Shown here piece after piece: positions 1 through 33,385 of a DNA stretch of 64,000 nucleotides. The translations under genes were made by a program, and so were the position numbers. The notes under the pieces are model-generated. The model saw nothing but the letters and a program-made list of their open reading frames with translations, searched no databases and had not been told where the DNA came from. Each line of letters starts with the position of its first letter. Position 1 is the stretch's first letter. The DNA comes from Bacillota bacterium (GTDB lineage: Bacteria; Bacillota; UBA994), in NCBI GenBank assembly GCA_018333655.1, contig JAGXTJ010000023.1, forward strand, positions 62,001-126,000. The letters run 5' to 3'.

Positions 1-294
1 CTCGTTGAACTCATTTACATGCCAGAGTGGGAAGCCTACGTGGTTGACACCCCCGGCTTCAGTAAGTTTGATCTGCCAGTTGAGCTATCGAGCCTGGCTC
101 TGTCCGACTATTTTCTTGAGATGCGGGGACTACGGATGCACTGCAAATTCGGCCACGACTGTAGACACCAAGACGAACCAGGCTGCCGTGTAGGGCAAGA
201 AGTTCAGGCGGGGACTATATCCGCGGAGCGCTACCAAAGTTACATCATGCTGCTAGGGGAATTGAAAGAGCGCGAGAGGAGTCAGTATAAGTGA
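1..294 (+). CDS. rsgA: Ribosome small subunit-dependent GTPase A, 3' part only
   Basis: The window opens inside this gene; the frame is open from base 1 and 97 codons remain. The visible part starts just before the G3 motif DTPGF (about visible residue 16) and ends with the family's C-terminal zinc-binding segment (Cys-x4-His/Cys-x-His pattern followed by EPGC). RsgA is a circularly permuted GTPase that acts on the maturing 30S subunit in the cytoplasm. The stop codon overlaps the GTG start of rpe by 4 nt, so the two genes are probably co-transcribed and translationally coupled. The N-terminal OB domain and the P-loop lie outside the window. Confidence 0.9.
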   Translation, partial: LVELIYMPEWEAYVVDTPGFSKFDLPVELSSLALSDYFLEMRGLRMHCKFGHDCRHQDEPGCRVGQEVQAGTISAERYQSYIMLLGELKERERSQYK

Positions 295-941
295 CCATTG
301 TCTCACCTTCCGTACTTGCGGCCGACCTCTTATTCTTGCGAGAAGAATTTGAGAGTGTGGTACAGGCCGGCTTAACATCGGTGCATTTAGATATAATGGA
401 TGGGCATTTTGTGCCCAATCTTTCGTATGGTCTGAACATGGTTCATGCTGTAAAGCGTTTCGGCCAACTTAAATTTGATGTTCACCTGATGGTGACTGAA
501 CCGGAGCGTTATGTAGTTGAGCTGGCAGCGCTACGCCCGGAGTTTATTACTGTCCATTACGAGGCCACGAACCACTTGCATCGGCTTATCTACCGCATCA
601 AGGAGCTAGGGTGTAAGGCAGGGGTATCGCTTAACCCTTCTACCTCTCCAGAGGTTTTAAAATACGTCTGGCCCGACCTTGATGGAGTGTTGATCATGAC
701 AGTCAACCCTGGGTTTGGCGGGCAGCAATTTATCAGCACCATGTTGCCAAAAATTGCGGCAGTAAAAGAGGTAACTAGTGACATAGAGCGTCCCTTCTTT
801 ATTCAAGTCGATGGGGGCATCAATCTAGAGACGGGCATGGCCGCGGCAATAGCTGGGGCGACACATCTGGTGGCCGGGGCAGCTTTCTTCCAAAGTCCCG
901 ATCGTGCCGCTTTCGCGCAGGCTTTGCAGTTAGCTCCGTAA
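291..941 (+). CDS. rpe: Ribulose-phosphate 3-epimerase
   Basis: A 216-residue protein, full length for the family. It interconverts D-ribulose 5-phosphate and D-xylulose 5-phosphate in the pentose phosphate pathway, as a cytoplasmic metal-dependent TIM barrel. Visible family motifs are SPSVLAAD at the N-terminus, HLDIMDGHFVPN (metal-binding His and Asp), DVHLMV, MTVNPGFGGQ and QVDGGIN. The start is GTG at 291, overlapping the rsgA stop; no separate promoter is needed. The rsgA-rpe order is common in Bacillota. A strong hairpin follows the stop immediately. Confidence 0.95.
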   Translation: MTIVSPSVLAADLLFLREEFESVVQAGLTSVHLDIMDGHFVPNLSYGLNMVHAVKRFGQLKFDVHLMVTEPERYVVELAALRPEFITVHYEATNHLHRLIYRIKELGCKAGVSLNPSTSPEVLKYVWPDLDGVLIMTVNPGFGGQQFISTMLPKIAAVKEVTSDIERPFFIQVDGGINLETGMAAAIAGATHLVAGAAFFQSPDRAAFAQALQLAP

Positions 942-4036: not shown

Positions 4037-4891
4037 TTGAGTTTTGCCGCGCTTTTGTCGGCAGCGGAGGACGCGACCCTGCCTGAAGTGATACTGGCGA
4101 GGGAAGTAGCCAAGGGTAACTTGACGGCTGCGGATATCTGGGAGAGTCTCTCGCAGAGTCTTGTGGTCATGAAAGAAGCTGTAGCCAGTGGTTTAAAGAA
4201 GACCGAGCTCTCGCCTAGCGGCTTGTCGGGCGGCGACGCAGCACGGCTCTATCGTTCACCGCACAGTATTTTAGGTGAAGTAGGCAAGAGAGCCGCGGCC
4301 TACGCCTTGGCCACTGCCGAGGTGAACGCCAGCATGGGGCGCATAGTCGCGGCACCTACAGCGGGTTCAAGTGGCGTTCTGCCGGGTGTCTTGCTGGCGC
4401 TTTCCGAGGTACACCTGATTGATGACGAGCAGTTGGTTAGGGCCTTAGTTGTGGCGGGTGGCATTGGGCAAGTGGTTAGTGCGCGCGCTACTTTGGCCGG
4501 GGCCGAAGGCGGGTGCCAGGCTGAATGCGGAGCGGCAGCGGCCATGGCCGCCGGTGCGACTGTTTTTCTCCTAGGTGGTGACACCGAGGCAGTTTTTCAC
4601 GGCGCGGCTATGGCGATCACTAACCTGCTCGGGTTAGTGTGCGACCCGGTGGCAGGCCTAGTAGAAGTGCCTTGTATTGCTCGAAACGCGGGTGCATCAG
4701 CTATAGCGCTGCTCTCTGCGGAACTAGCGCTAAGTGGTATTCGCAGCCTTATACCGCCCGATGAAGTGGTCGATGCCATGCGTGAGGTCGGGCGGCTTCT
4801 GCCAGCGTCTCTACGTGAGACGGCTGTTGCTGGGCTGGCCAATACGCCGACAGCGCGAGCGCTCGAAAAAAATCTGTTGGGGCGACAGTAA
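4037..4891 (+). CDS. sdaAA: L-serine ammonia-lyase, iron-sulfur-dependent, alpha subunit
   Basis: About 284 residues. Cysteines expected to hold the [4Fe-4S] cluster are visible in CQAECG and in the VCDPVAGLVEVPC segment; other family motifs are APTAGSSGVLPG and the Ala-rich AAAAMAAGA. The frame is open to a TTG at 4007, but the TTG at 4037 gives the family's usual N-terminus (MSFAALLSAAE) and sits just after the sdaAB stop, so I prefer it; neither has a strong ribosome binding site. It works only as a complex with SdaAB. Confidence 0.9.
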   Translation: MSFAALLSAAEDATLPEVILAREVAKGNLTAADIWESLSQSLVVMKEAVASGLKKTELSPSGLSGGDAARLYRSPHSILGEVGKRAAAYALATAEVNASMGRIVAAPTAGSSGVLPGVLLALSEVHLIDDEQLVRALVVAGGIGQVVSARATLAGAEGGCQAECGAAAAMAAGATVFLLGGDTEAVFHGAAMAITNLLGLVCDPVAGLVEVPCIARNAGASAIALLSAELALSGIRSLIPPDEVVDAMREVGRLLPASLRETAVAGLANTPTARALEKNLLGRQ

Positions 4892-4912
4892 GCAAGAGGA
4901 AAGTAATACCGG

Positions 4913-4941
4913 GAATACCTCCTTCGCGGTGGAGCATACTA
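4913..4941 (+). promoter_or_regulatory. SigG-type forespore promoter of the SASP gene
   Basis: GAATA at 4913-4917, a 17-bp spacer, then CATACTA at 4935-4941. This fits the SigG pattern (GHATR, 17-18 bp, CATXHTA), and alpha/beta-type SASP genes are classic SigG targets. The SASP start codon is 53 nt downstream. Confidence 0.7.
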
Positions 4942-4994
4942 TGCTCAGCAGGATCGATTTACACCCTGCAAGTAACCAAAGGAGGTGAATCAAG

Positions 4995-5222
4995 ATGGCA
5001 AGAGGTAGTGATACTAGTAGCCAAATTGTAGTCCCCCAAGCCAAGAATGCCATGGAGCAGTTCAAGTATGAGGTAGCTTCAGAGCTTGGCATACAGACCC
5101 CAGCAGACGGATATTGGGGAACCATGACCACGCGTGACACCGGCGCCATCGGTGGCCACATGGTACGTAAAATGATCGAAATGGCTGAGCGTTCTCTCGC
5201 TGGCCGTGGCAACACGCGCTAA
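4995..5222 (+). CDS. Alpha/beta-type small acid-soluble spore protein
   Basis: A 75-residue SASP. The family blocks are present: an ELGI segment at about residues 30-33 where the GPR protease normally cuts, GYWGTMTTRDTGAIGG, and MVRKMIEMAE. These proteins coat and protect DNA in the dormant spore and are degraded at germination. A strong AAAGGAGGTG site precedes the ATG, a SigG-type promoter lies upstream and a hairpin terminator follows, so it is a single-gene unit. It is direct evidence that the organism makes endospores. Confidence 0.96.
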   Translation: MARGSDTSSQIVVPQAKNAMEQFKYEVASELGIQTPADGYWGTMTTRDTGAIGGHMVRKMIEMAERSLAGRGNTR

Positions 5223-5246
5223 GCTTCCATAAGAGAACATTTTTCG

Positions 5247-5275
5247 AGAAAGTGGGCGCTTGCCCACTTTCTTCT
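5247..5275 (+). terminator. Terminator of the SASP gene
   Basis: An 11-bp perfect stem (5247-5257 with 5262-5272) around a four-base loop, ending in CTTTCTTCTAATTT. The T-tract is interrupted but the stem is strong and the position right after the SASP stop fits. Confidence 0.7.
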
Positions 5276-5276
5276 A

Positions 5277-5420
5277 ATTTCTCCCCACTTCTTGCTTCTT
5301 GCTCCTTGCCTCTTGCTCCTTGCCTCTTGCTTCTTGCTTCTTGTCTCCTGCCTCTTGCATCTTGTTTCTTGCCTCTTGCATCTTGTTTCTTGCCTCTTGC
5401 TCCTTGTCTCCTCACTCCCG
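5277..5420. repeat. Degenerate 7/14-bp tandem repeat (CTTGCCTCTTGCTC-like)
   Basis: About 140 bp built from units such as CTTGCTC, CTTGCCT, CTTGTTT and CTTGCAT. It is the same kind of sequence, on the opposite strand, as the larger array at 26812-27075. It lies in the intergenic space between the SASP terminator and rsmD. Open frames across it encode only Leu/Ala/Ser/Cys-rich low-complexity sequence and are not genes. Confidence 0.85.
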
Positions 5421-5478
5421 TTCTCTTATACTCAAAGGGTAAGGCGTATTTTTCTAACATAGGGAATCGAGGTGTGCG

Positions 5479-6039
5479 ATGCGCGTTATTGCCGGGACAC
5501 TTGGTGGACGAGCCATCGGCATGAAGGATAGCCTGCCGATCAGACCCACATCAGATAAGGCGCGCGGCGCCGTTTTCTCGAGCTTGGCCCCCCGCATCGC
5601 AGGCGCAAAATTTCTCGACATTTTCGCGGGCACAGGGGCCATGGGCATCGAGGCTATTTCGCGTGGGGCACATCGGGTGACGGCCGTTGAACTGTCTCCG
5701 CAGGTGGCTAGGCTAATCAAAGAAAATTTGTTGTCTCTAGGCATAACTAGTGATGAGTTCGAAGTCAAAGTGGGGTCCTTCCAAGCCGTGCTGCCCATTC
5801 TGGCTGCAGAAACCTACGACCTAATCTTTGCCGACCCCCCTTATGGGCAAGGTTACCCCGCTGAAGTTCTACGCCTGATTGCGCACCATGACTTGCTTAA
5901 AACAGAGGGCTTGTTGGTCATTGAGCACTTTTCTAAGGAGAGTGTGCCGCAAAGGCAAGGCAAGTTGCGTTTGTTTAAGATTAAAACCTATGGCCAAACA
6001 CAAATGTCCTTCTTCATGGCCGAAAGGGAGTGCACTTAG
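5479..6039 (+). CDS. rsmD: 16S rRNA (guanine(966)-N(2))-methyltransferase
   Basis: A 186-residue Rossmann methyltransferase of normal family length. It shows [11 protein letters not shown] at the N-terminus, [15 protein letters not shown], the SAM-binding [14 protein letters not shown] loop and the catalytic DPPYGQGY motif. It uses S-adenosylmethionine to methylate G966 of 16S rRNA (E. coli numbering) during 30S assembly. The stop shares 1 nt with the preferred start of coaD, the common rsmD-coaD pairing. The ATG at 5479 follows GAATCGAGGTG. Confidence 0.94.
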
Positions 6040-6527
6040 TGATTAAGGCAGTTTATCCAGGTAGTTTTGATCCGGTTACTAATGGACATTTAGACATTAT
6101 CGAAAGAGCCTCGCGGGCTTTCGACCTTCTCGTCGTCGCCGTAGTAAGAAACCCTGCCAAAGATGCCATGTTCTCTATCGAGGAGCGAGTAGAACTGCTT
6201 AGGCAAGTGACAGCGCACCTGCCTAATGTTTCTGTAGGCCATTTTGAAGGCTTACTCATGGAATACATGTACCTGTTAGATGCCAAGATAGTTATTAAGG
6301 GCCTGCGAGCAATTTCAGATTTTGAGTCTGAGTTTCAGATGGCACTCATGAATCGCACCCTAGACAGCTCTATTGAGACCATGTTCATGATGACTAACAG
6401 CCGATACTCCTACCTCTCATCTTCTCTGGTTAAAGAAGTCGCACGTCTAGGGGGGGCCATCGATGAGTTAGTTCCTGCAGAAGTAGCTGAGGCGGTGGAA
6501 GCTAGGCTTTTACACGCCAGACGCTAA
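6039..6527 (+). CDS. coaD: Phosphopantetheine adenylyltransferase
   Basis: About 162 residues. It catalyses the fourth step of coenzyme A synthesis, 4'-phosphopantetheine plus ATP to dephospho-CoA. Motifs seen: [16 protein letters not shown] with the nucleotidyltransferase T/HxGH signature, [23 protein letters not shown] and [13 protein letters not shown]. An upstream in-frame GTG at 6030 exists, but GTG 6039 gives the canonical [10 protein letters not shown] start and a proper spacing from AAAGGGA. The 3' end overlaps the converging ylbJ gene by 26 bp. Confidence 0.93.
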
Positions 6528-7743
6528 TCTTTATTCTCGTGAGGCCAATCACCAGCGCCGAGAATACTACCGCTATCCCTAGGAAGGCTGCCGCTCTTAT
6601 CCCGGTGAAGTAGAGGCGATGCCAGAAGAAGTAGGGGCTAGGGCTAGGTATGGTGGTGAGAAAGGCCGGAACGGCTAGGTTAATGTTAAAGGCGGCAAAA
6701 ACATTCCACAATAATATTGTGGCCACAAAGGCCAGTACCGCATGCAACAAGCGTGCGAATAGGTAGGGAGTCAGCCTAATATCGGTGTCGTTGATAATGC
6801 TGGCCACTTGGCCATGTACCGATAGGCCGCTCCAGGCAATAACTGCCCCCGCCATGGCCACTCTCTGCTGCAGGGGGGCAAGGGCCGTAGAACACATTTG
6901 TGTGCCGATAGTGATTTCAAATATGCCCGCCACGGCGGCAGGCGCGAGGGCAGCGGCTACCCCGAGTGGCGCTAGTAGAAAGGCAATTAGTCTGCCCAGA
7001 AAGTCTACTGCCCCCACAATAGTTGCCAACCTTATAAGAACAGAGAAAATTATAATAAACCCCCCGATGGTCAAGAGGCTCTGTACAGAATTGCGAATGG
7101 CATCCCCCATTAGCTGACCTAGTGGTCTGCCGTCCCGTTTCCGGGCACGGTGCAGTTCGACGAGAGAATTGACGATGATGTTACCGCTATGATGTGAATC
7201 CTTCGTGCGCGGGGCATGGCGGCGATAAAAGCGCATACATACGCCGACCCCTAGGCTCGCTAAGTAATGAGCCAGCGCCATAATGGTGCCTAAGGTAGCA
7301 TCTCCGAACATGCCTACCGCGACCGCACCAAACATAAATAAAGGGTCAGCCGTGTTGGCGAAGGAGATGAGACGCTCGGCCTCAACTTGCGTACAAGCGT
7401 TTTGCCGGCGCAACTTGGCCGTCAGGATAGCGCCGAGTGGGTAGCCCGAGGCTAGCCCCATGGCCATGACAAAGGAGCCCACACCCGGCACATTAAAGAG
7501 CGGCCGCATGAGAGGCTCCAGTAGTACTCCCATGGCATTAACCACCCCGAGGCCCATCAGGATCTCTGAGAAAACGAAAAAGGGCAAGAGGGCGGGAAAG
7601 ACAATCTCCCACCAAACTCGTAGGCCTTTCAAGGCGGCAGAGAAAGTATCCTCAGGAAAAAGTACCATGGCGATGGTGAGTATTACCGCCACGCTGGCCA
7701 GTAGAAGTGATCCCCCAACATCTTTGCGTCCTCGCCGTCCCAT
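6502..7743 (-). CDS. ylbJ: Sporulation integral membrane protein YlbJ-like
   Basis: A 413-residue polytopic membrane protein with many hydrophobic segments across its whole length, the YlbJ pattern ([39 protein letters not shown], nucleoside-recognition/gate-like repeats). In Bacillus subtilis ylbJ is needed for proper spore formation; the transported substrate, if any, is not something the sequence tells. It is encoded against coaD, with 26 bp of 3' overlap, and diverges from ackA. A SigE-like promoter is possible upstream. Homology assigned from recognised sequence blocks. Confidence 0.85.
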
Positions 7744-23906: not shown

Positions 23907-24161
23907 GTGTCGCAGTGGGAGAAATTATTGTCGCGCATATGTTCCATGCCGCGAGACGTTCGCTTCTCTGAGGTCAAGAAGGTGCTTGAAGGTTACGGCT
24001 ACATTGGTCGTAGGCCAGGCAGTGGCAGTAGCCACTGGACATTCCGTAAGCAGGGTAGTGCACCTATCACCGTGCCAGTAGATGAGCCCATCAATTTGGC
24101 ATACGTTAAACTAGTGAAAGCCATGATTGAAAGGGAGGTGCCCTCGAGTGAAGAATCTTGA
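23907..24161 (+). CDS. hicA: HicA-type mRNA interferase toxin
   Basis: An 84-residue protein with the HicA double-stranded RNA-binding-like fold: VRFSEVKKVLEGYGY, then RPGSGSSHWTF with the catalytic-type His43, and ITVPVDEP near the end. HicA toxins cleave mRNA and tmRNA when not bound by HicB. The start is GTG at 23907. Its 3' end overlaps hicB by 14 nt. The length fits the family. Confidence 0.88.
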   Translation: MSQWEKLLSRICSMPRDVRFSEVKKVLEGYGYIGRRPGSGSSHWTFRKQGSAPITVPVDEPINLAYVKLVKAMIEREVPSSEES

Positions 24162-24552
24162 TTACTACATGCGTCAAAACTACAGGGTACAGGTTGTCAG
24201 GGATGAAGCGGAGGGAGGGTATGTACTCTCTATCCCAGAACTGCAGGGATGTTTAACTTGTGCGTTTGATGTGGGTGTTGGTATGAGCATGCTTGAGGAC
24301 GCAAAGAGAGAATGGATTCAAGCGGCCTTGGAAGACGGCTATGAAGTGCCCAAGGCGGACACCAACGATAGCTACTCAGGACAGTTTAAGCTTAGGATAC
24401 CAAGATCGCTACACAAAGAACTGGCAGAGCGGTCTAAGCATGAAGGGGTCAGCATGAATCAGTATTGCTTATACCTATTATCAAATCATGGGCGAGTGGC
24501 TAGGGTGCGTCGGAAATTGTCATCTCTTTCTCGGACGGAGAGGGGCTCATAG
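24148..24552 (+). CDS. hicB: HicB-type antitoxin with a ribbon-helix-helix C-terminus
   Basis: About 134 residues. The N-terminal half is the degenerate RNase H-like HicB domain (YRVQVVRDEAEGGYVLSIPEL, QGCLTCAFDV); the C-terminal half (FKLRIPRSLHKELAERSKHEG, SMNQYCLYLLS) is an Arc-type ribbon-helix-helix DNA-binding domain, expected to repress its own operon. GTG 24148 follows AAGGGAGGTG and is preferred over an earlier TTG at 24127. Partner of hicA. Confidence 0.88.
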   Translation: MKNLDYYMRQNYRVQVVRDEAEGGYVLSIPELQGCLTCAFDVGVGMSMLEDAKREWIQAALEDGYEVPKADTNDSYSGQFKLRIPRSLHKELAERSKHEGVSMNQYCLYLLSNHGRVARVRRKLSSLSRTERGS

Positions 24553-26080: not shown

Positions 26081-26410
26081 ATGATTAGCAAGTGTTTGTC
26101 GAGTGGGGCAGAGGGAGGACGTGCGGAACTCTTGTCTGGGGTTAAGGCCGTGGTCTTGTCCTTCCTACAAGGGACGTCCGCTAAAGTTTATTTGTTTGGT
26201 TCCTTTGCCAAGAGCGAAGAAAGGCACAGCTCGGACATTGACCTTGCCGTCGACCATGCAGGGCAAGTCTCCCCACACATGTTTGCCACGCTGCGCGAGT
26301 TACTGCACGAGTCGTCCATACCTTACCAAGTAGATGTTGTAGACCTCTATCATGTGGCAGAGTCTTTCAGGACCAAAGTCAGGCAGGAGGGAATCCTATG
26401 GAGCGAGTAG
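26081..26410 (+). CDS. MntA-type nucleotidyltransferase antitoxin
   Basis: A 109-residue minimal nucleotidyltransferase. The active-site pattern is LFGSFAKSEERHSSDIDLAV (GS followed by DxD), with a later Asp in YQVDVVDL. In MntA-HepT systems such a protein modifies and neutralises the HEPN toxin by adding AMP to it. It starts with ATG 26081 and overlaps the HEPN gene by 13 nt. Assignment of the antitoxin role rests on the gene pair. Confidence 0.82.
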   Translation: MISKCLSSGAEGGRAELLSGVKAVVLSFLQGTSAKVYLFGSFAKSEERHSSDIDLAVDHAGQVSPHMFATLRELLHESSIPYQVDVVDLYHVAESFRTKVRQEGILWSE

Positions 26411-26811
26411 AAGAACGCCTTAACCAGGCCGTGAAGGCTGTAGCGGCTTTGTCTGAGGTAGTGGTCATTGACCAGGCTAGCGCTATCTGGCGCGACTCCG
26501 CGATTAAGCGCTTTGAGCTCGCCTTTGAAGCCACGTGGAAGGCCGCCAAGTTGGTCTTGCTCGTGCGTGAAGGCATCGAGGTCAGTAGCCCAAAAGGCGT
26601 GATCCGGTCATGTCGCGAAGTAGGCTGCCTCAGTGACGCACTTGCGACTGAGGCCCTCCTCATGGCTGACGACCGTAATTTAGCTGTTCACACCTATAAC
26701 GAGGAACTCGCAGAGCAAATTTATGGCAGACTAAAGAGCCATCTCACCGTGCTGCGTGCTTGGGTGGCTTCATTATCTGTAGGGGATAACGAGAAGCAGA
26801 CTGGAGGGTAG
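26398..26811 (+). CDS. HEPN-domain toxin (HepT/HI0074 type)
   Basis: A 137-residue helical protein with the HEPN RNase motif R-x4-H followed by Tyr: Arg93 to His98 in DDRNLAVHTY. Other family blocks are AIKRFELAFEATWKAAK and SPKGVIRSCREVG. HepT-type proteins are RNases held in check by their MntA partner, encoded just upstream. The C-terminal end runs into the repeat array: the last codons (GDNEKQTGG) are next to its first units. Confidence 0.85.
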   Translation: MERVEERLNQAVKAVAALSEVVVIDQASAIWRDSAIKRFELAFEATWKAAKLVLLVREGIEVSSPKGVIRSCREVGCLSDALATEALLMADDRNLAVHTYNEELAEQIYGRLKSHLTVLRAWVASLSVGDNEKQTGG

Positions 26812-27075
26812 AGGCAAGAAACAGGAAGCAAGAAACAGGAAGCAAGAAACAGGAAGCAAGAAACAGGAAACAAGAAGCAAGAAGCAAGAAACAAGAAGCA
26901 AGAAACAGGAAATAAGAAACAGGAGGCAAGAAACAGGAGGCAAGAAACAGGAGGCAAGAAACAGGAAGCAAGAAACAGGAAGCAAGAAACAGGAAATAAG
27001 AAACAGGAGGCAAGAAACAGGAAGCAAGAAACAGGAAGCAAGAAATAGGAGGCAAGAAACAGGAAGCAAGAGAGG
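26812..27075. repeat. Tandem array of 14-bp AGGAAGCAAGAAAC-like units
   Basis: About 260 bp of imperfect copies of AGGAAGCAAGAAAC, itself two 7-bp halves, with variants such as AGGAGGCAAGAAAC and AGGAAATAAGAAAC. Roughly 18 copies. There are no spacers, so it is not a CRISPR array. Frames across it are open only because the unit has no stop codons on the minus strand; they encode Phe/Leu/Pro/Ser/Cys repeats and are not genes. The complement of the 5277-5420 array is built from similar units. With the next repeat and terminator it fills the 427-bp gap to the MCP gene. Confidence 0.92.
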
Positions 27076-27238: not shown

Positions 27239-29077
27239 TTAGGTGCGGAACTTGCTCGCTGCGGTGTAAAGTGACTTGGCGAGCTCGCCTAGTTGCTGCC
27301 CTGCGGTGGCGCTCTCTTGGGAAGAGGCGGCGACTTCTTCGGTGATGGCGCCCAGATTTTCCATAGAGGCCGAGACTTCGTTGGCGGCTGCCGCCTGTTC
27401 TTCACCCGCTGCGGAGATGCCCTCGACCATGAGCGCGATATTGTTTATCTGCGCCACGATGTTCTCTAGGGCCTCTTGCGCGCTCTTGGCTCCCGCGGCG
27501 CCCTGCGTGCTGATAGTTACTGCGCCGTCTATCTGCCCCTGTATAGAGGCGATGAGCTTGGTAATCTCCTTAGTCGACTGCCTGCTTTGCTCAGCTAGGC
27601 TACGCACCGCGTCGGCCACGACGGCAAAGCCTCGGCCGTGCTCGCCCGCCCGCGCGGCCTCGATAGCGGCGTTTAGTGCCAGTAAGTTCGTTTGGTCCGA
27701 GATATCGTCAATGGCAGAGACAATGCCACCGATTTGCTTGGAAACAGTAGAAAGCGCTAAGACGCTTTCTTGCACCGTCTTTAAGGAATTTATGGAGTTA
27801 CCTACCCTGGCGGTTCCCTCGGCGGCAGCGGTGCGAGCATTAGAGCTGGCAGCCGTGGCGCTCTGGGCATTAGCGGCAATTTCCTCGGTAGCGGCGGCCA
27901 ATTGCTCGAGCGTGCGCGAGATTTCTTGGGTAATTCCTGCTTGGCTGTCGTTACCAGCGGCGACTTCTTTAATGCTGCCGCTAATAAGGCCCGATTTGTC
28001 TGCCAAGGCAAAGGAAGCAGCCTGTGCTCCTGAAATCATGGTGCGCAGGTCGCCAATCATCTGGGCGAAAGCGCGCGAGAGATCGCCTAGTTCGTCTGTA
28101 TCATTACCGGCTGTGTAGGCATAAGTCAGGTCACCGCCAGCCACGGCCTGCACTCCCTTGACGACGGGTACTAGGCGCGAAGTGAGACGCGAAGCATAAA
28201 CCCAGGCCCCGATGCTAGCAGCAGCAATGAGAAACGGGAAGGCAATCGCCATAAACCAAACTACTGACATGGCGTCGGCGCGTATCTCCCTTACGCCAAC
28301 CTCGGCCACCACCACTAGGTTTGGCCCTGGCACCAACTCCATTTTACCAAAGACATCTAGTCCCTGGTAGTTTATGTAACGGCCAAAGAACTTGCCCTCG
28401 GCTCCTGGCGCAAAGCGTTCTAGCGCTGGGGCGGAGGCCTGCAAGGCTAGAGGAGCCTGTTCTACAAAGCGGCTGGCAGTGACAAACAAACCCTCGCGAT
28501 TGACGAGGTAGCGCTCGCCGGTATGTTCAAAATGGCTCAGGGGCAGGTAGGGATCAGTGGCCAGCGGGGTGGCAATGGTTACTGCTCCGACGATGGCATT
28601 CCTTTGGTTGCGCACCGGCGCGGCAAAAACCCAGACTAACGAGCCATCAATAGCAGATTTGCGAATGGCACTCGAGGGCACCCCCCTGAGGGCACCCTGT
28701 ACATGCTCCTGGGCTGAGAGGTCAAGCACGGCGTTAGCCGTGTTCAGGTTAGACACGCCCTGCGCATCGGTCAGGGTAATCGAGGCCACATTGGCCAAGT
28801 CTGCCCGCGTGCGGGTCAGTAAGTCGAATATAGCGGTATTGTTTCCCGTGAGAAGCGTAGGCGACATGGCCAACTTAGTAGCATGAGAAAGCAGTGCGTC
28901 ATGCCTTACTCTCAAAGTATTTATCAAACCCTCGTGCTTCCCCGCGAGAATTGCCTGCGCCGCTTCGTCCATGGTGTAGACATTGCGCAGTACAGTAGCC
29001 ACCCCAAAGCCCACAAGAGGCAGTGTGCATACCAGTATCATGACGAAAACAAGCTTTGCCCGTAGTGTCTTTAGCAT
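27239..29077 (-). CDS. Methyl-accepting chemotaxis protein with a periplasm-side Cache domain
   Basis: A 612-residue transmembrane receptor: TM1 about 8-30, an extracellular double-Cache-like sensor about 35-268, TM2 about 271-293, a HAMP region, then the signalling domain with the highly conserved tip [20 protein letters not shown] and the [18 protein letters not shown] segment. It relays ligand signals to CheA through a coupling protein. It is transcribed away from the CheW-Cache gene; its sensor (187-265) closely resembles residues 278-356 of that protein. ATG 29077 follows GGGGAGAGAAT on the minus strand. Confidence 0.95.
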
Positions 29078-29112
29078 AAATTCTCTCCCCTACCTGCATA
29101 TTAACTACCATT

Positions 29113-29141
29113 AGAATAATTTGCGCCATCACTATTGTCAA
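29113..29141 (-). promoter_or_regulatory. SigA-like promoter of the MCP gene
   Basis: Minus strand: TTGACA (plus 29136-29141), 17-bp spacer, TATTCT (29113-29118), 36 nt before the ATG. No good SigD match was found for this direction. Confidence 0.55.
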
Positions 29142-29190
29142 TCAGGCGCACTCGTAAACGGTCAAATTGGCAACACTTTATTTTTGCTAC

Positions 29191-29217
29191 TAAATACTTG
29201 CCACTTAAAGCCGATTA
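29191..29217 (+). promoter_or_regulatory. SigD promoter of the CheW-Cache/cheA/cheB/flgM run
   Basis: TAAA at 29191-29194, exactly 15 bp, then GCCGATTA at 29210-29217. The SigD/FliA-type consensus in Bacillus is TAAA-N15-GCCGATAA, so only one base differs. The first gene starts 42 nt downstream. SigD itself is encoded at 61020. Confidence 0.85.
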
Positions 29218-29259
29218 GACAATAATAGAAGCAAAGATAAGTGCAATTGGAGGTCGGTT

Positions 29260-30414
29260 ATGAGTCAGGATTTGCAGCTTGTAATTTTTGCCTTGGATAG
29301 AGAGTACTACGGCATTGAAACGCGGCTAGTCACCGAGATTTCGCGCCTTGAGGCGCTGACTTTTGTACCGCGCACCGCCAAGCACATCGCCGGTGTAGTC
29401 AACTTGCGGGGGAAGATTACCCCCGTCATTTGTCTGCGCGCGCGGCTCGGCCTGCCGCCGCGCGTTGACAGCAAGGAGACGCGCATAATCTTTGTCGAAG
29501 TCGAGGAAGTATTGGTCGGCCTAGTTGTCGATGCCGTGCTTGAAGTAAGTGATATCGCCGCCGCGCTCATTACCGCGCCGCCGGCGGTTATTTCTGCCCC
29601 CTTTGTGCTCGGGGTGTGCCACTACAAGCAGCAAAATGCCGAGCATTCGGCGCGAGTAACCCTAGATGCCCTCGTGCAGCAAGAGAAAAACGCCATTGCC
29701 CTGCGCCTCTCGGAGATGCAGGGGCAAGTTAAGCTGCTGGCAGAACTACCGCTCTGGCAGACAGCTGCCAATGCTCTGGCCACGGCAGAGCTGTTTACGC
29801 GCCGCATCCAACTGCGCGCTATTGAGAACATCGCCATTACCGACCTCACTGGCCACAGCCTAGTGAACACCGCGCACAAGCCGTTGGACTTGTCAAAACT
29901 CAAGTATGTCCACAAGTCGCTTACTGGCGCGCCCGCGCATGAAATAGTCGTTTCGGCTGTTGACGGCGGCATTATCCTGGCGGTATCTGAGCCTCTGCGC
30001 AGCCCGCAGGGACAGGTAGTTGGCGTCATTTTGATGACCACAGATTTGTCTAAGGACCAGAGCCTTGAGTTTGCCCCCTTTGGTCAGACGGGCGAGCGCT
30101 ACTTAGTAGACCGCAACGGGCACTTTATTACCAAAAGCCGTTTTATGGAAAACGCAGTGCTTCTAAGGCAGGCTGCCTCTGCGCCCGCCCTTGACTTGTT
30201 TGTCGATAAATCCCTGCCGAGCTTTTTTGGGCGGTATTTAAACTATCGCCAGCACGAAGTCTATGGCGCCATGAACTACTTGGCGGCTCTCGATGTGGTC
30301 GTCGTAGCAGAGCAAGAGGTAGTAGAGACGACAGGGGAGATACTGGTGGTCTTGCTTGACCCCGCCCGACTATTTACCCAAGAACTAACGGCCAGGCAAG
30401 GGGTGATTTCATGA
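29260..30414 (+). CDS. CheW coupling protein with a Cache sensor domain inserted in the CheW fold
   Basis: A 384-residue soluble protein with no transmembrane helix. Residues 1-123 are most of a CheW domain (LVIFALDREYYGIE, VVNLRGKITPVICLR, EVLVGLVVDAVLEV); residues about 124-359 match the MCP sensor encoded opposite (GERYLV, SRF, FFGRY, VVVVAE); residues 360-378 (GEILVVLLDPARLF) are the closing CheW strand and helix. A Cache domain has thus been placed in the last CheW loop. CheW links receptors to CheA. It is the only CheW-like adaptor here, SigD-controlled, overlapping cheA by 4 nt. It would sense a cytoplasmic ligand or the receptor itself; this is inference. Confidence 0.88.
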   Translation: MSQDLQLVIFALDREYYGIETRLVTEISRLEALTFVPRTAKHIAGVVNLRGKITPVICLRARLGLPPRVDSKETRIIFVEVEEVLVGLVVDAVLEVSDIAAALITAPPAVISAPFVLGVCHYKQQNAEHSARVTLDALVQQEKNAIALRLSEMQGQVKLLAELPLWQTAANALATAELFTRRIQLRAIENIAITDLTGHSLVNTAHKPLDLSKLKYVHKSLTGAPAHEIVVSAVDGGIILAVSEPLRSPQGQVVGVILMTTDLSKDQSLEFAPFGQTGERYLVDRNGHFITKSRFMENAVLLRQAASAPALDLFVDKSLPSFFGRYLNYRQHEVYGAMNYLAALDVVVVAEQEVVETTGEILVVLLDPARLFTQELTARQGVIS

Positions 30415-32357
30415 AAAGTAATGAATATCTACAGTTATTTTTAGACGAAACAGAGGAGATGGTCGACCGTTTAGCGACTAATCTTGTCTCCTTAGAGAAA
30501 AAACCTTCCGACCATGAGCTCATCTCCGTCGTCTTTCGCGACGCGCACACCATTAAAGGCTCCGCCGGAGCCATGGGCTACACCCAGATGGCGAGCATTG
30601 CGCACCATATGGAGAGTGTGCTGAGCCTTTTGCGTGAGAAAGAGCTTGCCCCCACGGCGCTAGTTTTTACGGCCCTGCTTGGCGCTCTCGACTTACTCAA
30701 AAATATTAAGCAAGATATTTATCGCTCGGGTAGCGAGGGGCAGTACAATCTCGCGCCGGTTATTGCTGAGCTAGGTTCTTTTGGCAGCAACGCACAAGTC
30801 GCGAGCGCCACCGACGCCTTGCCACCCGCCGCCAGCGCGGCGCAGAGCGCAGGTACCAACTCGGCTGCGGCTCTGGAGTACAAAGTAGAAGTGACGCTTC
30901 GCCCTGATGCCCCCATGAAGGGGGTGCGGGTGTTTCTCTTGCTACAGATCTTGCGCGGCCTAGGGTCGGTGCTAAACTGTGACCCGGCTGAAGAACAGCT
31001 CTTAAATGAAAAGTTTGAGCAGCGCTTTGCCGTGGTGCTGTCTACCGAGCGGCACAGCGATGAAGTCCTAGCCATGCTTGGCAATGACGGTGATGTTGAA
31101 GATGTACGAGTTGCCCCTGTAGCGGCCAAGAAAGTTGAAGCCGAGGGCTCTGACAAGGCAACTGTCACTAAGGCCGATACTCGTCAGCACTCGGTGCGGG
31201 TCGATGTGCGCAAGCTTGAGGCCCTAATGAACTTAGTGGGTGAGCTGGTTATAGAGCGCAATCGCCTGGCCAATGTCGCTACGCACCTAGAGCGACAAAA
31301 CAAAGAGGATGAAAATGTGCGTACCCTGATGGCTGTTTCTAGTCAACTAGGGCGCATCACGGGCGACTTACAGCGCGAAATAATGAAGGTACGCATGGTG
31401 CCCATCGCCCAGCTCTTTGGCACCTTCCCGCGCTTGGTGCGCGACTTGGCCCAGAACTTAGAAAAAAATATTGAGCTAGAGCTCGAAGGCACCGATACCG
31501 AGCTAGATCGCACCATCGTCGAAGAGGTGAGAGACCCTCTTATCCATTTAGTGCGTAATTCCGTCGATCACGGTGTCGAGACCCCCAGCGAACGCCAAAA
31601 AAAGGGCAAACCACCCACGGGGCGAGTGCTGCTCAGCGCCCGCCACGAGGACAACCAGGTGGTTATCTCTGTTAAGGATGATGGCGGCGGCATAGATGCG
31701 GCCAAAGTGGCGCGCAAAGCGGTGGCCATGGGGCTACTCACAGAAAGCGACCTAGCGGGGCTTAGCGAAGCGCAAAAGCAGCGTCTCATTTTGCTGCCCG
31801 GCTTAAGCACCGCCGCCGCCGTTAGCAATGTCTCGGGGCGCGGCGTGGGCATGGACATAGTGCGTAGTCAAATTGAAAAGCTCGGCGGCAGTGTCGACAT
31901 TGCCAGCACCCTAGGGCAGGGCACCGAGTTTACTATTCGCCTGCCCCTCACCTTGGCTATCTTCCGCGCTTTGTTAGTGAGCGCCAATAATTTAGACTAC
32001 GCCCTGCCTATCGCCACCGTTATCGAGACACGCAAGCTAAACCCCGCCGATTTACGCGTGGTTAAGGGGCGTGAATGCTTGGTGTTGCGCGAGCAAATTG
32101 TGCCCGTGGTCGCCTTGCATACCCTTTTCGCTCTGCCCGCCCCGCAGAAAAAACCGCAGAGCTTAGTCGTAGCGGCGAGTGGAGCCACTAAAGTTGGGCT
32201 ACTCGTTGACCGATTACTAGGTGAACAAGAAGTAGTGCTTAAACCCCTAGGCCCCTTTTTCGCCCAGAACAAAGAGTTGGCTGGTGCCACCATCTTGGGC
32301 GATGGGCGGGTAGTGCCCATTCTCGACATCAATGGCCTACTGGGGTTGATGTCCTAG
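30411..32357 (+). CDS. cheA: Chemotaxis histidine kinase CheA
   Basis: A 648-residue kinase with the full domain set: P1/HPt with His46 in DAHTIKGSAGAMGY, a P2-like response-regulator binding domain about 155-240, P3 dimerisation (VDVRKLEALMNLVGELVIERNRL region), P4 ATPase with the N box (HLVRNSVDHGVE), G1 (DDGGGID) and G2 (GRGVGMD), and a P5 CheW-like domain at the end. It phosphorylates CheY and CheB in response to receptors. Starts ATG 30411, overlapping the CheW-Cache gene; 2 nt before cheB. No cheY is found in the window. Confidence 0.97.
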   Translation: MKSNEYLQLFLDETEEMVDRLATNLVSLEKKPSDHELISVVFRDAHTIKGSAGAMGYTQMASIAHHMESVLSLLREKELAPTALVFTALLGALDLLKNIKQDIYRSGSEGQYNLAPVIAELGSFGSNAQVASATDALPPAASAAQSAGTNSAAALEYKVEVTLRPDAPMKGVRVFLLLQILRGLGSVLNCDPAEEQLLNEKFEQRFAVVLSTERHSDEVLAMLGNDGDVEDVRVAPVAAKKVEAEGSDKATVTKADTRQHSVRVDVRKLEALMNLVGELVIERNRLANVATHLERQNKEDENVRTLMAVSSQLGRITGDLQREIMKVRMVPIAQLFGTFPRLVRDLAQNLEKNIELELEGTDTELDRTIVEEVRDPLIHLVRNSVDHGVETPSERQKKGKPPTGRVLLSARHEDNQVVISVKDDGGGIDAAKVARKAVAMGLLTESDLAGLSEAQKQRLILLPGLSTAAAVSNVSGRGVGMDIVRSQIEKLGGSVDIASTLGQGTEFTIRLPLTLAIFRALLVSANNLDYALPIATVIETRKLNPADLRVVKGRECLVLREQIVPVVALHTLFALPAPQKKPQSLVVAASGATKVGLLVDRLLGEQEVVLKPLGPFFAQNKELAGATILGDGRVVPILDINGLLGLMS

Positions 32358-32359
32358 CT

Positions 32360-33385
32360 ATGAGTAACGAGAAGAAAGTACGCGTACTTGTTGTCGATGA
32401 CTCACCCTTTATGCGGCAGCTCATTGGCAATATCATCGGTGGCAGTGCCGACCTTGAGGTCGTGGGCATTGCCCGCGATGGCAAAGAAGCCGTAGAAAAA
32501 TGCCGCGATTTACGGCCAGACGTTTTGACCCTAGACATAGAGATGCCGGTAATGACCGGTCTCGAAGCCCTAGCCGTCATTATGCGCGAAACGCCGACCC
32601 CCGTGGTCATGGTCAGCAGCCTTACTAAGGCCGGCGCGAAAGAGACCCTGCAAGCGCTAGAAATAGGCGCGATTGACTTTATTGCTAAGCCAGAGCGCGC
32701 CGCCAATACCTTCGATTTAGCGGCCACCATCTTGCCGAAACTCCGCGCCGCAGCAGGCGTGGTGTGGCCTCGGGCAGCGCGTCGCCTCGAAGTAGGCGTA
32801 CCTGCGCCGCGCACCTACGACCTAGTACTTATCGGTTGCTCTACCGGGGGTCCGGCCGCCCTGCAGCACATCGTGCCCGCCTTGCCCGCGAATAGCTCCC
32901 TGCCAGTGGTAATCGCGCAGCATATTCCGGGTACCTTTACGGGGCCCATGGCGCAGCGGCTAGGGCAGCTGGGCAAGGTCAAAGTGGTAGAGGCGCAAGA
33001 CGGCATGCCGCTTACAGGCGGGGTAGTCTACATCGCCCCGGGCGGGCTTCATACAGTGGTGCGTAAAGATCGCCTGCGCTGCTACTTGCAGGTTCTACCT
33101 GCCGAACATGTAGCGACACCCTTTCGCCCAAGTGTCGACGTACTCTTTAAGAGTGCCGAGGAATATGGCAGCAGTGTCTTGGCCGTAATCCTTACGGGCA
33201 TGGGGCAGGATGGCTTAGAAGGTGCTAAGGTGCTGCACCGCGCAGGCGCCCATATACTGGCCGAATCCGAAGAGTCCGCCATCATTTACGGCATGCCCCG
33301 CGCGGTAGCCGAAGCCAACTTAGCACACGGAGTGCTTAGTCTACGTCAAATTACGGAGTTTTTGCAAAAAGCCATGCAAAGATAG
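32360..33385 (+). CDS. cheB: Protein-glutamate methylesterase/glutamine deamidase CheB
   Basis: A 341-residue protein: an N-terminal receiver domain with phospho-acceptor Asp59 (VLTLDIEMPVMTG) and acidic DDS pocket, then the esterase domain with the catalytic triad in IGCSTGGP (Ser), AQHIPGTFT (His) and TGMGQDGLEG (Asp). It removes methyl groups from receptors, giving adaptation. No cheR lies in the window, so the methyltransferase must be elsewhere. Confidence 0.96.
   Translation: MSNEKKVRVLVVDDSPFMRQLIGNIIGGSADLEVVGIARDGKEAVEKCRDLRPDVLTLDIEMPVMTGLEALAVIMRETPTPVVMVSSLTKAGAKETLQALEIGAIDFIAKPERAANTFDLAATILPKLRAAAGVVWPRAARRLEVGVPAPRTYDLVLIGCSTGGPAALQHIVPALPANSSLPVVIAQHIPGTFTGPMAQRLGQLGKVKVVEAQDGMPLTGGVVYIAPGGLHTVVRKDRLRCYLQVLPAEHVATPFRPSVDVLFKSAEEYGSSVLAVILTGMGQDGLEGAKVLHRAGAHILAESEESAIIYGMPRAVAEANLAHGVLSLRQITEFLQKAMQR

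Follow-up and report, generated by a model that had tools for sequence, protein, structure and literature searches.

Sensing in bacterial chemotaxis is assigned to the receptors, and the coupling protein CheW is mostly regarded as a scaffold, CheV being the main exception. The locus described here raises the question of how a coupling protein could acquire a sensor of its own, and what such a sensor might do there. It lies in a stretch of 64,000 nucleotides from a Bacillota bacterium (GTDB lineage Bacteria; Bacillota; UBA994; NCBI GenBank assembly GCA_018333655.1, contig JAGXTJ010000023.1, positions 62,001 to 126,000 of the forward strand), hereafter called the window, and comprises a transmembrane methyl-accepting chemotaxis protein (MCP) and a divergently encoded CheW protein that carries a double-Cache sensor, hereafter CheW-Cache. 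Our analysis predicted that the sensor is nested within the CheW fold and supported its origin by local duplication from a receptor. We consider it somewhat probable that a CheW of the che operon was thereby turned into a cytosolic sensor, which would bind a small metabolite and tune the coupling between receptors and kinase.

The features of the two genes, with positions in the window, are as follows.

27239..29077, minus strand: transmembrane MCP, 612 residues (open reading frame; Pfam MCPsignal and HAMP)
28997..29053, minus strand: MCP membrane segment 1, residues 9-27 (hydropathy 2.6 over 19 residues)
28262..28978, minus strand: MCP double-Cache sensor, predicted outside, residues 34-272 (AlphaFold model and PDB matches)
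28208..28264, minus strand: MCP membrane segment 2, residues 272-290 (hydropathy 2.17 over 19 residues)
28043..28198, minus strand: MCP HAMP domain, residues 294-345 (Pfam PF00672)
27344..27850, minus strand: MCP signalling domain, residues 410-578 (Pfam PF00015)
29078..29259, no strand: divergent intergenic region of 182 bp between the MCP and CheW-Cache starts
29260..30414, plus strand: CheW-Cache coupling protein, 384 residues (open reading frame; Pfam CheW and dCache_1)
29269..29625, plus strand: CheW first part, residues 4-122 (Pfam 6-123; model strands up to E116-123)
29626..30339, plus strand: inserted double-Cache sensor with long N-terminal helix, predicted, residues 123-360 (alignment with plain CheW; model; fold matches)
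30340..30387, plus strand: CheW last strand and helix, residues 361-376 (aligned with the plain CheW last strand; TtCheW alignment 3..379)

We addressed the architecture of CheW-Cache by comparing it with CheW proteins that carry no sensor. Pfam recognized the CheW domain at residues 6-123 (96.8 bits, cut-off 23.5), which covered profile positions 1-120 of 138. When 22 plain CheW proteins, drawn from family and phylum, were aligned with it in MAFFT, each showed one large gap opposite the insert, and the junctions followed the pattern GV.HH.. / insert /.LI.LLD; an alternative alignment that misplaced the CheW C-terminus was left out. In particular, the plain CheW proteins of the family read GV.HH, a two-residue turn and then TLISLLDPVRLF, and the window protein reads GVCHY, about 236 Cache residues and then ILVVLLDPARLF. 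The AlphaFold model of CheW-Cache (mean predicted local distance difference test score, pLDDT, 88.0; predicted template modelling score 0.69) runs in the order CheW strand (116-123), helix (127-161), double Cache, last Cache strand (346-353) and CheW strand (360-366). Structural comparison with VIA-align placed TtCheW (2qdl_B) on this model over 140 of 146 residues in the range 3..379 (Z 20.5, root-mean-square deviation 1.9), so that the complete CheW fold, including the last strand, is present in the prediction. The insert at about 124-355 of the model matched the folds of DctB, KinD and PctA (for DctB 3by9_A, VIA-align Z 19.3, root-mean-square deviation 2.7, 216 residues, range 124..355). 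These results showed, on alignment and predicted model, that the sensor is nested within CheW: a Cache of about 236 residues appears to take the place of two turn residues in the final beta-hairpin of CheW, whose fold is predicted to close around it. A terminal fusion of Cache to CheW was also considered and was rejected, because CheW resumes after the Cache in the alignment, in the model and in the match to TtCheW.

The inserted sensor is related to that of the receptor encoded next to it. BLASTP aligned the two with 43% identity over 169 residues (E 2e-37), and the real score of 136 bits compared with a best score of 30 bits among 1000 shuffles of the CheW-borne sensor; over the whole domain, the two window copies were 37% identical. 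In Pfam, the CheW-borne sensor matched dCache_1 at 48.4 bits, above the curated cut-off of 45, and the MCP gave 137.9 bits for MCPsignal, 41.0 bits for HAMP and 24.6 bits for dCache_1, the last of these under that cut-off. The AlphaFold model of the MCP sensor (mean pLDDT 90.1) matched DctB, Mlp24, PctC and others in the PDB, and in the models both window sensors have a double-Cache fold with a long N-terminal helix. Because the other two dCache_1 matches of the genome (contigs C8 and C2) reached at most 22.7 bits to either window sensor, the two window Cache domains are mutually closest within the genome; the C2 protein, a kinase, matched the Cache profile weakly at 24.9 bits, far under the family members.

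The placement of the two sensors is predicted to differ. The usual position of dCache_1 is outside the cytoplasm between two membrane helices, and the MCP copy conforms to it, with two strongly hydrophobic stretches of 19 residues (9-27 and 272-290) around the sensor, whereas a hydropathy scan of CheW-Cache revealed no membrane segment flanking the sensor, the best stretches being strands of the CheW core. Since CheW-Cache has no such segment and stands in a CheW and cheA context, its Cache copy is predicted to lie in the cytosol and the MCP copy outside. A first-pass annotation made from the sequence alone had described the two genes as lying back to back with starts 182 bp apart, with a related sensor in both proteins, one copy outside the membrane and the other predicted inside; the open reading frame coordinates, the BLASTP and shuffle results and the hydropathy of both proteins bear this description out. 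The annotation had not mentioned that CheW continues beyond the sensor, which is an insertion and not an appendage.

To what extent the arrangement is conserved was evaluated in a class sample of 15 genomes, 8 of them from the same family. The family members belong to the genus of the window (g1; the window genome G000 with its congeners G001 and G002), a sister genus (g2; G003, G005, G006 and G007) and a third genus (g3; G004). CheW-Cache was present in all three g1 genomes, and full-length identity to the window protein was 71% for G001 and 70% for G002. All four g2 genomes instead encode a plain CheW of 148-149 residues, each adjoining a divergent Cache-bearing MCP, with a gap of 180-184 bp in the three genomes measured; in G006, the adjacency of MCP and CheW was deduced from an overlap of 228 bp at 98.7% between contigs. 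In G003, the MCP (L038:7636-9317) and CheA (4829-7015) are each split into two frames, by decay or assembly error. The g3 genome has a plain CheW of 155 residues, upstream of which a long frame resembles, by eye, the M28 peptidase of the window, with no MCP between them. Residue R50 is invariant in the three CheW-Cache proteins and occupies the position of R62 of E. coli CheW (offset 12, 2ho9 alignment), which the available text of PMC3828127 names as conserved; the accessible part of PMC5181776 assigns to subdomain 1 the E. coli CheW residues R117 and F122, whose replacements concern interface 2.

The MCP encoded divergently from CheW-Cache in both congeners has a four-helix bundle as its sensor, not a Cache: 4HB_MCP_1 scored 29.0 bits in G001, above the cut-off of 27, and 25.4 bits in G002, just below it. 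The G002 receptor and the window MCP share 76% identity in their signalling halves, and the G001 receptor is represented on its contig by its first 203 residues only. Each of these genomes gave a single match to the window Cache family, which was the CheW copy. With another sensor on the receptor next door, the CheW-borne Cache of these two species, out of three, thus does not depend on a Cache partner outside the cell. A search of 398 genomes of the phylum yielded, among the matches listed, which were the best part of the total, only the three g1 proteins as spanning both CheW and Cache; fusions of CheW with sensors of other families could escape notice in such a search. A search for related loci returned four, two of them full-length, namely those of the two congeners, and two that were multi-CheW proteins without Cache. 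One further candidate, a 421-residue frame with a Cache match (L117), was read by eye as a Cache protein of the membrane that ends in a HAMP-like tail, and was rejected as a CheW.

We traced the origin of the CheW-borne Cache with a tree of 24 Cache rows, consisting of 3 CheW-borne copies, 5 MCP-borne copies of the family and 16 others from the phylum. The outgroups were 16 of the 23 loci L096-L118; L099, L109, L110, L111, L113, L114 and L118 were dropped, their profile match being too short or missing. The three CheW-borne and five MCP-borne copies formed one clade apart from the 16 others (support 100/100), in which the three CheW copies formed a subclade (100/100). In approximately unbiased (AU) tests, a grouping of the CheW copies with outgroup L096 or L105 was rejected (p 0.0001 and p 0.0004), and the candidate sisters not rejected were the window MCP (p 0.48), the G003/G005 pair (0.34) and the G006/G007 pair (0.30). 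The window CheW copy is 33-37% identical to the g2 MCPs, with the same 37% to the window MCP as given above. Because the Cache domains of CheW-Cache and of the family MCPs share one fully supported clade, a local duplication of the sensor into CheW is supported at the level of sequence, as the annotation had proposed. The position as sister to the adjacent receptor fared less well: the two domains fell in one clade and not in distant ones, but the AU test singled out no single MCP as sister. These tests and the identities fit several MCP sisters, so that the duplication is local in origin but old, with several MCP copies of the family as possible donors. The simplest history, inferred by parsimony, would begin with the Cache-bearing MCP, because all four g2 receptors at the locus carry Cache; a copy then entered CheW on the g1 line, and the receptor exchanged its sensor later on the line of G001 and G002.

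That one genome holds homologous sensors in divergent genes, one outside and one inside, had led to the proposal of a paired readout, in which MCP-Cache and CheW-Cache compare two concentrations of one metabolite. We regard this as highly improbable. Neither congener retains the Cache pairing, an outcome that the annotation itself had named as refuting: there the receptor has its four-helix bundle and the sole family Cache match is the CheW copy. Moreover, the two window copies, at 37% identity, are no more alike than MCP copies across genera. The ligand pockets also argue against it. We inspected the columns of PctA R126, located by profile alignment with PctA, and of PctA D173, taken in the PctA register one column before the letter labelled D173eq by the script; the available portion of PMC10104139 describes the roles of both residues in the amino-acid binding motif of dCache_1 domains. 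At the R126 column, the CheW copies have L in the window and R in G001 and G002, and the MCP copies have Q in the window, Y in G003, R in G005 and G007 and S in G006 (Arg in 4 of 8). The D173 column shows T for all three CheW copies, A for the MCP of the window, and G, G, G and S for the remaining MCPs (Asp in 0 of 8). The dCache_1AA amino-acid motif is thus absent from the family copies, and the two window pockets are unlike each other at these columns (L/Q and T/A). Among solved structures, KinD was the best sequence match, and small carboxylates are a possible guess for the ligand by analogy, because KinD entry 4jgp is, by its title, pyruvate-bound.

How the nested sensor could act follows from its attachment. 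In receptors, the first helix and last strand of Cache both point toward the membrane side, so that the ends of the domain would lie close together, fit for insertion into a turn, and through these ends a ligand-driven movement could act on the CheW hairpin. We propose that CheW-Cache, as any CheW would, occupies the array position that links receptors to CheA, and that a small cytosolic metabolite binds in its Cache pocket. Such binding would shift the insert, which is joined to CheW by its first helix and last strand, and would thereby alter the hairpin; the altered hairpin may change the contacts of CheW to the receptor, to CheA-P5 or to a neighbouring CheW. The result would be a reset strength or cooperativity of receptor control over the kinase, by way of a change either in receptor-CheA coupling or in the contacts of core units with one another. 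Array membership, ligand binding and the effect on coupling are what we infer here. A fuller account, in which the locus is a natural domain-insertion biosensor, with the outside sensor of a receptor copied into a CheW turn and a cytosolic metabolite gating the coupling of all receptors in the array, and with the adjacent receptor having since changed its sensor in two of three species, so that the original sensing there would come only from inside, via the coupling protein, is one that we offer tentatively, at a little under an even chance.

Several observations weigh against a cytosolic sensor. Eight rows underlie the Cache portion of the model, and 5 of them are misaligned in their N-terminal part; in the window CheW-Cache, the arginine column of PctA and KinD holds Leu and the D173 column Thr; and a second, plain CheW could do the routine coupling, leaving CheW-Cache a minor role. 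The window genome encodes 3 CheW domains above the cut-off (in CheA, in CheW-Cache and in a plain CheW on contig C6) and 2 MCPs, and a second, unlinked plain CheW was found in all 8 family genomes, with a fourth match below the cut-off in G002. In favour of a cytosolic sensor, inputs are few in g1, with 2 MCPs per genome in each of the three, compared with 4-6 in g2 and 3 in g3.

Selection on the insert bears on the remaining alternatives. We estimated the ratio of nonsynonymous to synonymous substitution rates (dN/dS) by NG86 between G001 and G002, the comparison of G000 with G001 being saturated in most parts. The values were 0.078 for the CheW first part, 0.20 for the helix, 0.126 for the distal Cache and 0.067 for the proximal Cache, and 0.098 for CheA residues 250-640; between G000 and G001, identity was 75% in CheW, 77% in Cache and 56% in the linker-helix region. 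The Cache modules are thus kept by purifying selection about as well as CheW and CheA. Cache helices often pair, and an inserted Cache might bind no ligand and serve as a structural or dimerising module that holds CheW copies together and changes array packing. The long N-terminal helix (127-161) kept in the model and the absence of the pocket arginine from the window copy would fit such a role, as would the precedent of CheW-CheRlike, whose extra domain matters for array order in the available text of PMC7666581. However, the helix region is the least conserved part and the Cache modules are better conserved, the reverse of what a dimerisation helper predicts, and we consider this explanation unlikely. 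That the insertion is without function and merely tolerated in a redundant CheW, as the plain CheW elsewhere in the genome might allow, appears very improbable in view of the purifying selection, its retention in all three g1 genomes and a frame that is still intact although the proteins have diverged by about 30%. Draft assemblies in many contigs, as these are, would make an assembly chimera or annotation artefact conceivable in any one of the genomes; nevertheless, the same fusion with the same junctions recurs in three assemblies, at the full-length identities given above, which refutes this explanation and leaves it next to no probability.

A ligand-tuned coupling protein would have partial parallels among known systems. 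CheV, in the available text of PMC12691637, is likewise a coupling protein with an extra regulatory domain, and its phospho-mimetic form binds a subset of receptors. CheV differs in that its receiver is tuned by phosphorylation, whereas CheW-Cache has a double-Cache sensor inserted within CheW and gave no Response_reg match in Pfam at E up to 1; by analogy, CheW-Cache would correspond to CheV with a ligand as the tuning signal. A second domain is also present on the coupling protein CheW-CheRlike of spirochaete F2 systems, and a classical CheW is in the array as well (PMC7666581, accessible part), but there the addition is a C-terminal methyltransferase-like fusion, not an inserted sensor. The dCache_1 domains of PctA, KinD, DctB and Mlp24 share the fold of the insert, PctA and KinD being among those with a detectable sequence relation; unlike these extracytoplasmic sensors, the CheW-borne copy is predicted to lie in the cytosol, with a CheW strand attached to either end. 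An intracellular role of Cache-type domains has precedents in the small, principally intracellular families YkuI_C and Diacid_rec in the available text of PMC4822843, in which 78% of Cache domains are confidently predicted to be extracellular; these are other Cache families, however, and the word CheW does not occur in that text. In some Desulfobacteraceae, a 50-residue insertion splits the CheW domain of CheA (PMC10542144, available part), as the insert does here, but it is short, has no identified sensor and lies in CheA. Our literature search found neither a Cache or other sensor inside CheW nor the term 'CheW-Cache', with poor coverage of subscription journals. Coupling proteins with extra domains are thus known; of a sensor that sits within CheW and descends from the receptor next to it, the literature searched gave no example.

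Other chemotaxis proteins of the family may also carry binding domains in the cytosol. The only other MCP of the window genome (L044:5626-8160, contig C55) combines an MCP signalling domain with an SBP_bac_5 solute-binding domain. A clear membrane segment is absent (the highest 19-residue hydropathy, 1.71, falls at the very beginning of the longest frame), and the protein would have another outside-type binding domain placed inside. Its counterpart in G002 (L130) looks alike by eye, and MCPsignal frames of 803-870 residues occur in all 8 family genomes, the six besides G000 and G002 being judged by length only. An MCP of G004 (L039:2096-3619) has a hydrophobic N-terminus, a signalling domain and a C-terminal Cache/PDC-type match (residues 332-479; MCP-like_PDC_1, above the cut-off), apparently another cytosolic Cache among the chemotaxis proteins of the family.

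CheW-Cache is the first gene of a che run, in which its stop codon and the cheA start share 4 bases (ATGA).

30411..32357, plus strand: CheA (Pfam Hpt, P2, H-kinase_dim, HATPase_c and CheW)
32360..33385, plus strand: CheB (Pfam Response_reg and CheB_methylest)

The run belongs to a flagellar and chemotaxis cluster that includes, besides cheW-Cache, cheA and cheB, flgM and a FlgN-like gene (weak match), genes for FliW, flagellin, FliD, FlgD, MotA-type and MotB-type proteins, FliL, FliO and FliP, and those for a family-1 export protein, an SRP54-type GTPase, a PilZ protein, a sigma factor and two rod/hook proteins. On the other side of the MCP, a tandem 14-bp repeat (26814-27071; consensus GCAAGAAACAGGAA; 18.4 copies, 90% matches) separates it from a HEPN-type gene and yields repetitive minus-strand open reading frames that are unlikely to be genes. 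At 26081-26811, a Polbeta nucleotidyltransferase gene overlaps an NTase_sub_bind/HepT-like gene, which looks like an MNT-HEPN toxin-antitoxin pair. At 23907-24552, a HicB-type protein (43 bits) follows an overlapping open reading frame of 84 residues, which is HicA-like by eye and had no Pfam match at E 0.001, a probable HicAB pair.

The pre-insertion state is preserved in the sister genus, and the steps of a domain insertion into a signalling protein that is nearly universal can therefore be rebuilt at this locus. The turn of the last CheW hairpin is predicted to accept a folded domain, which would be useful for engineered ligand control of chemotaxis arrays. If the proposed mechanism is true, all receptors would respond together to a sensor in CheW, which would offer a simple means of tying swimming to the metabolic state of the cell.

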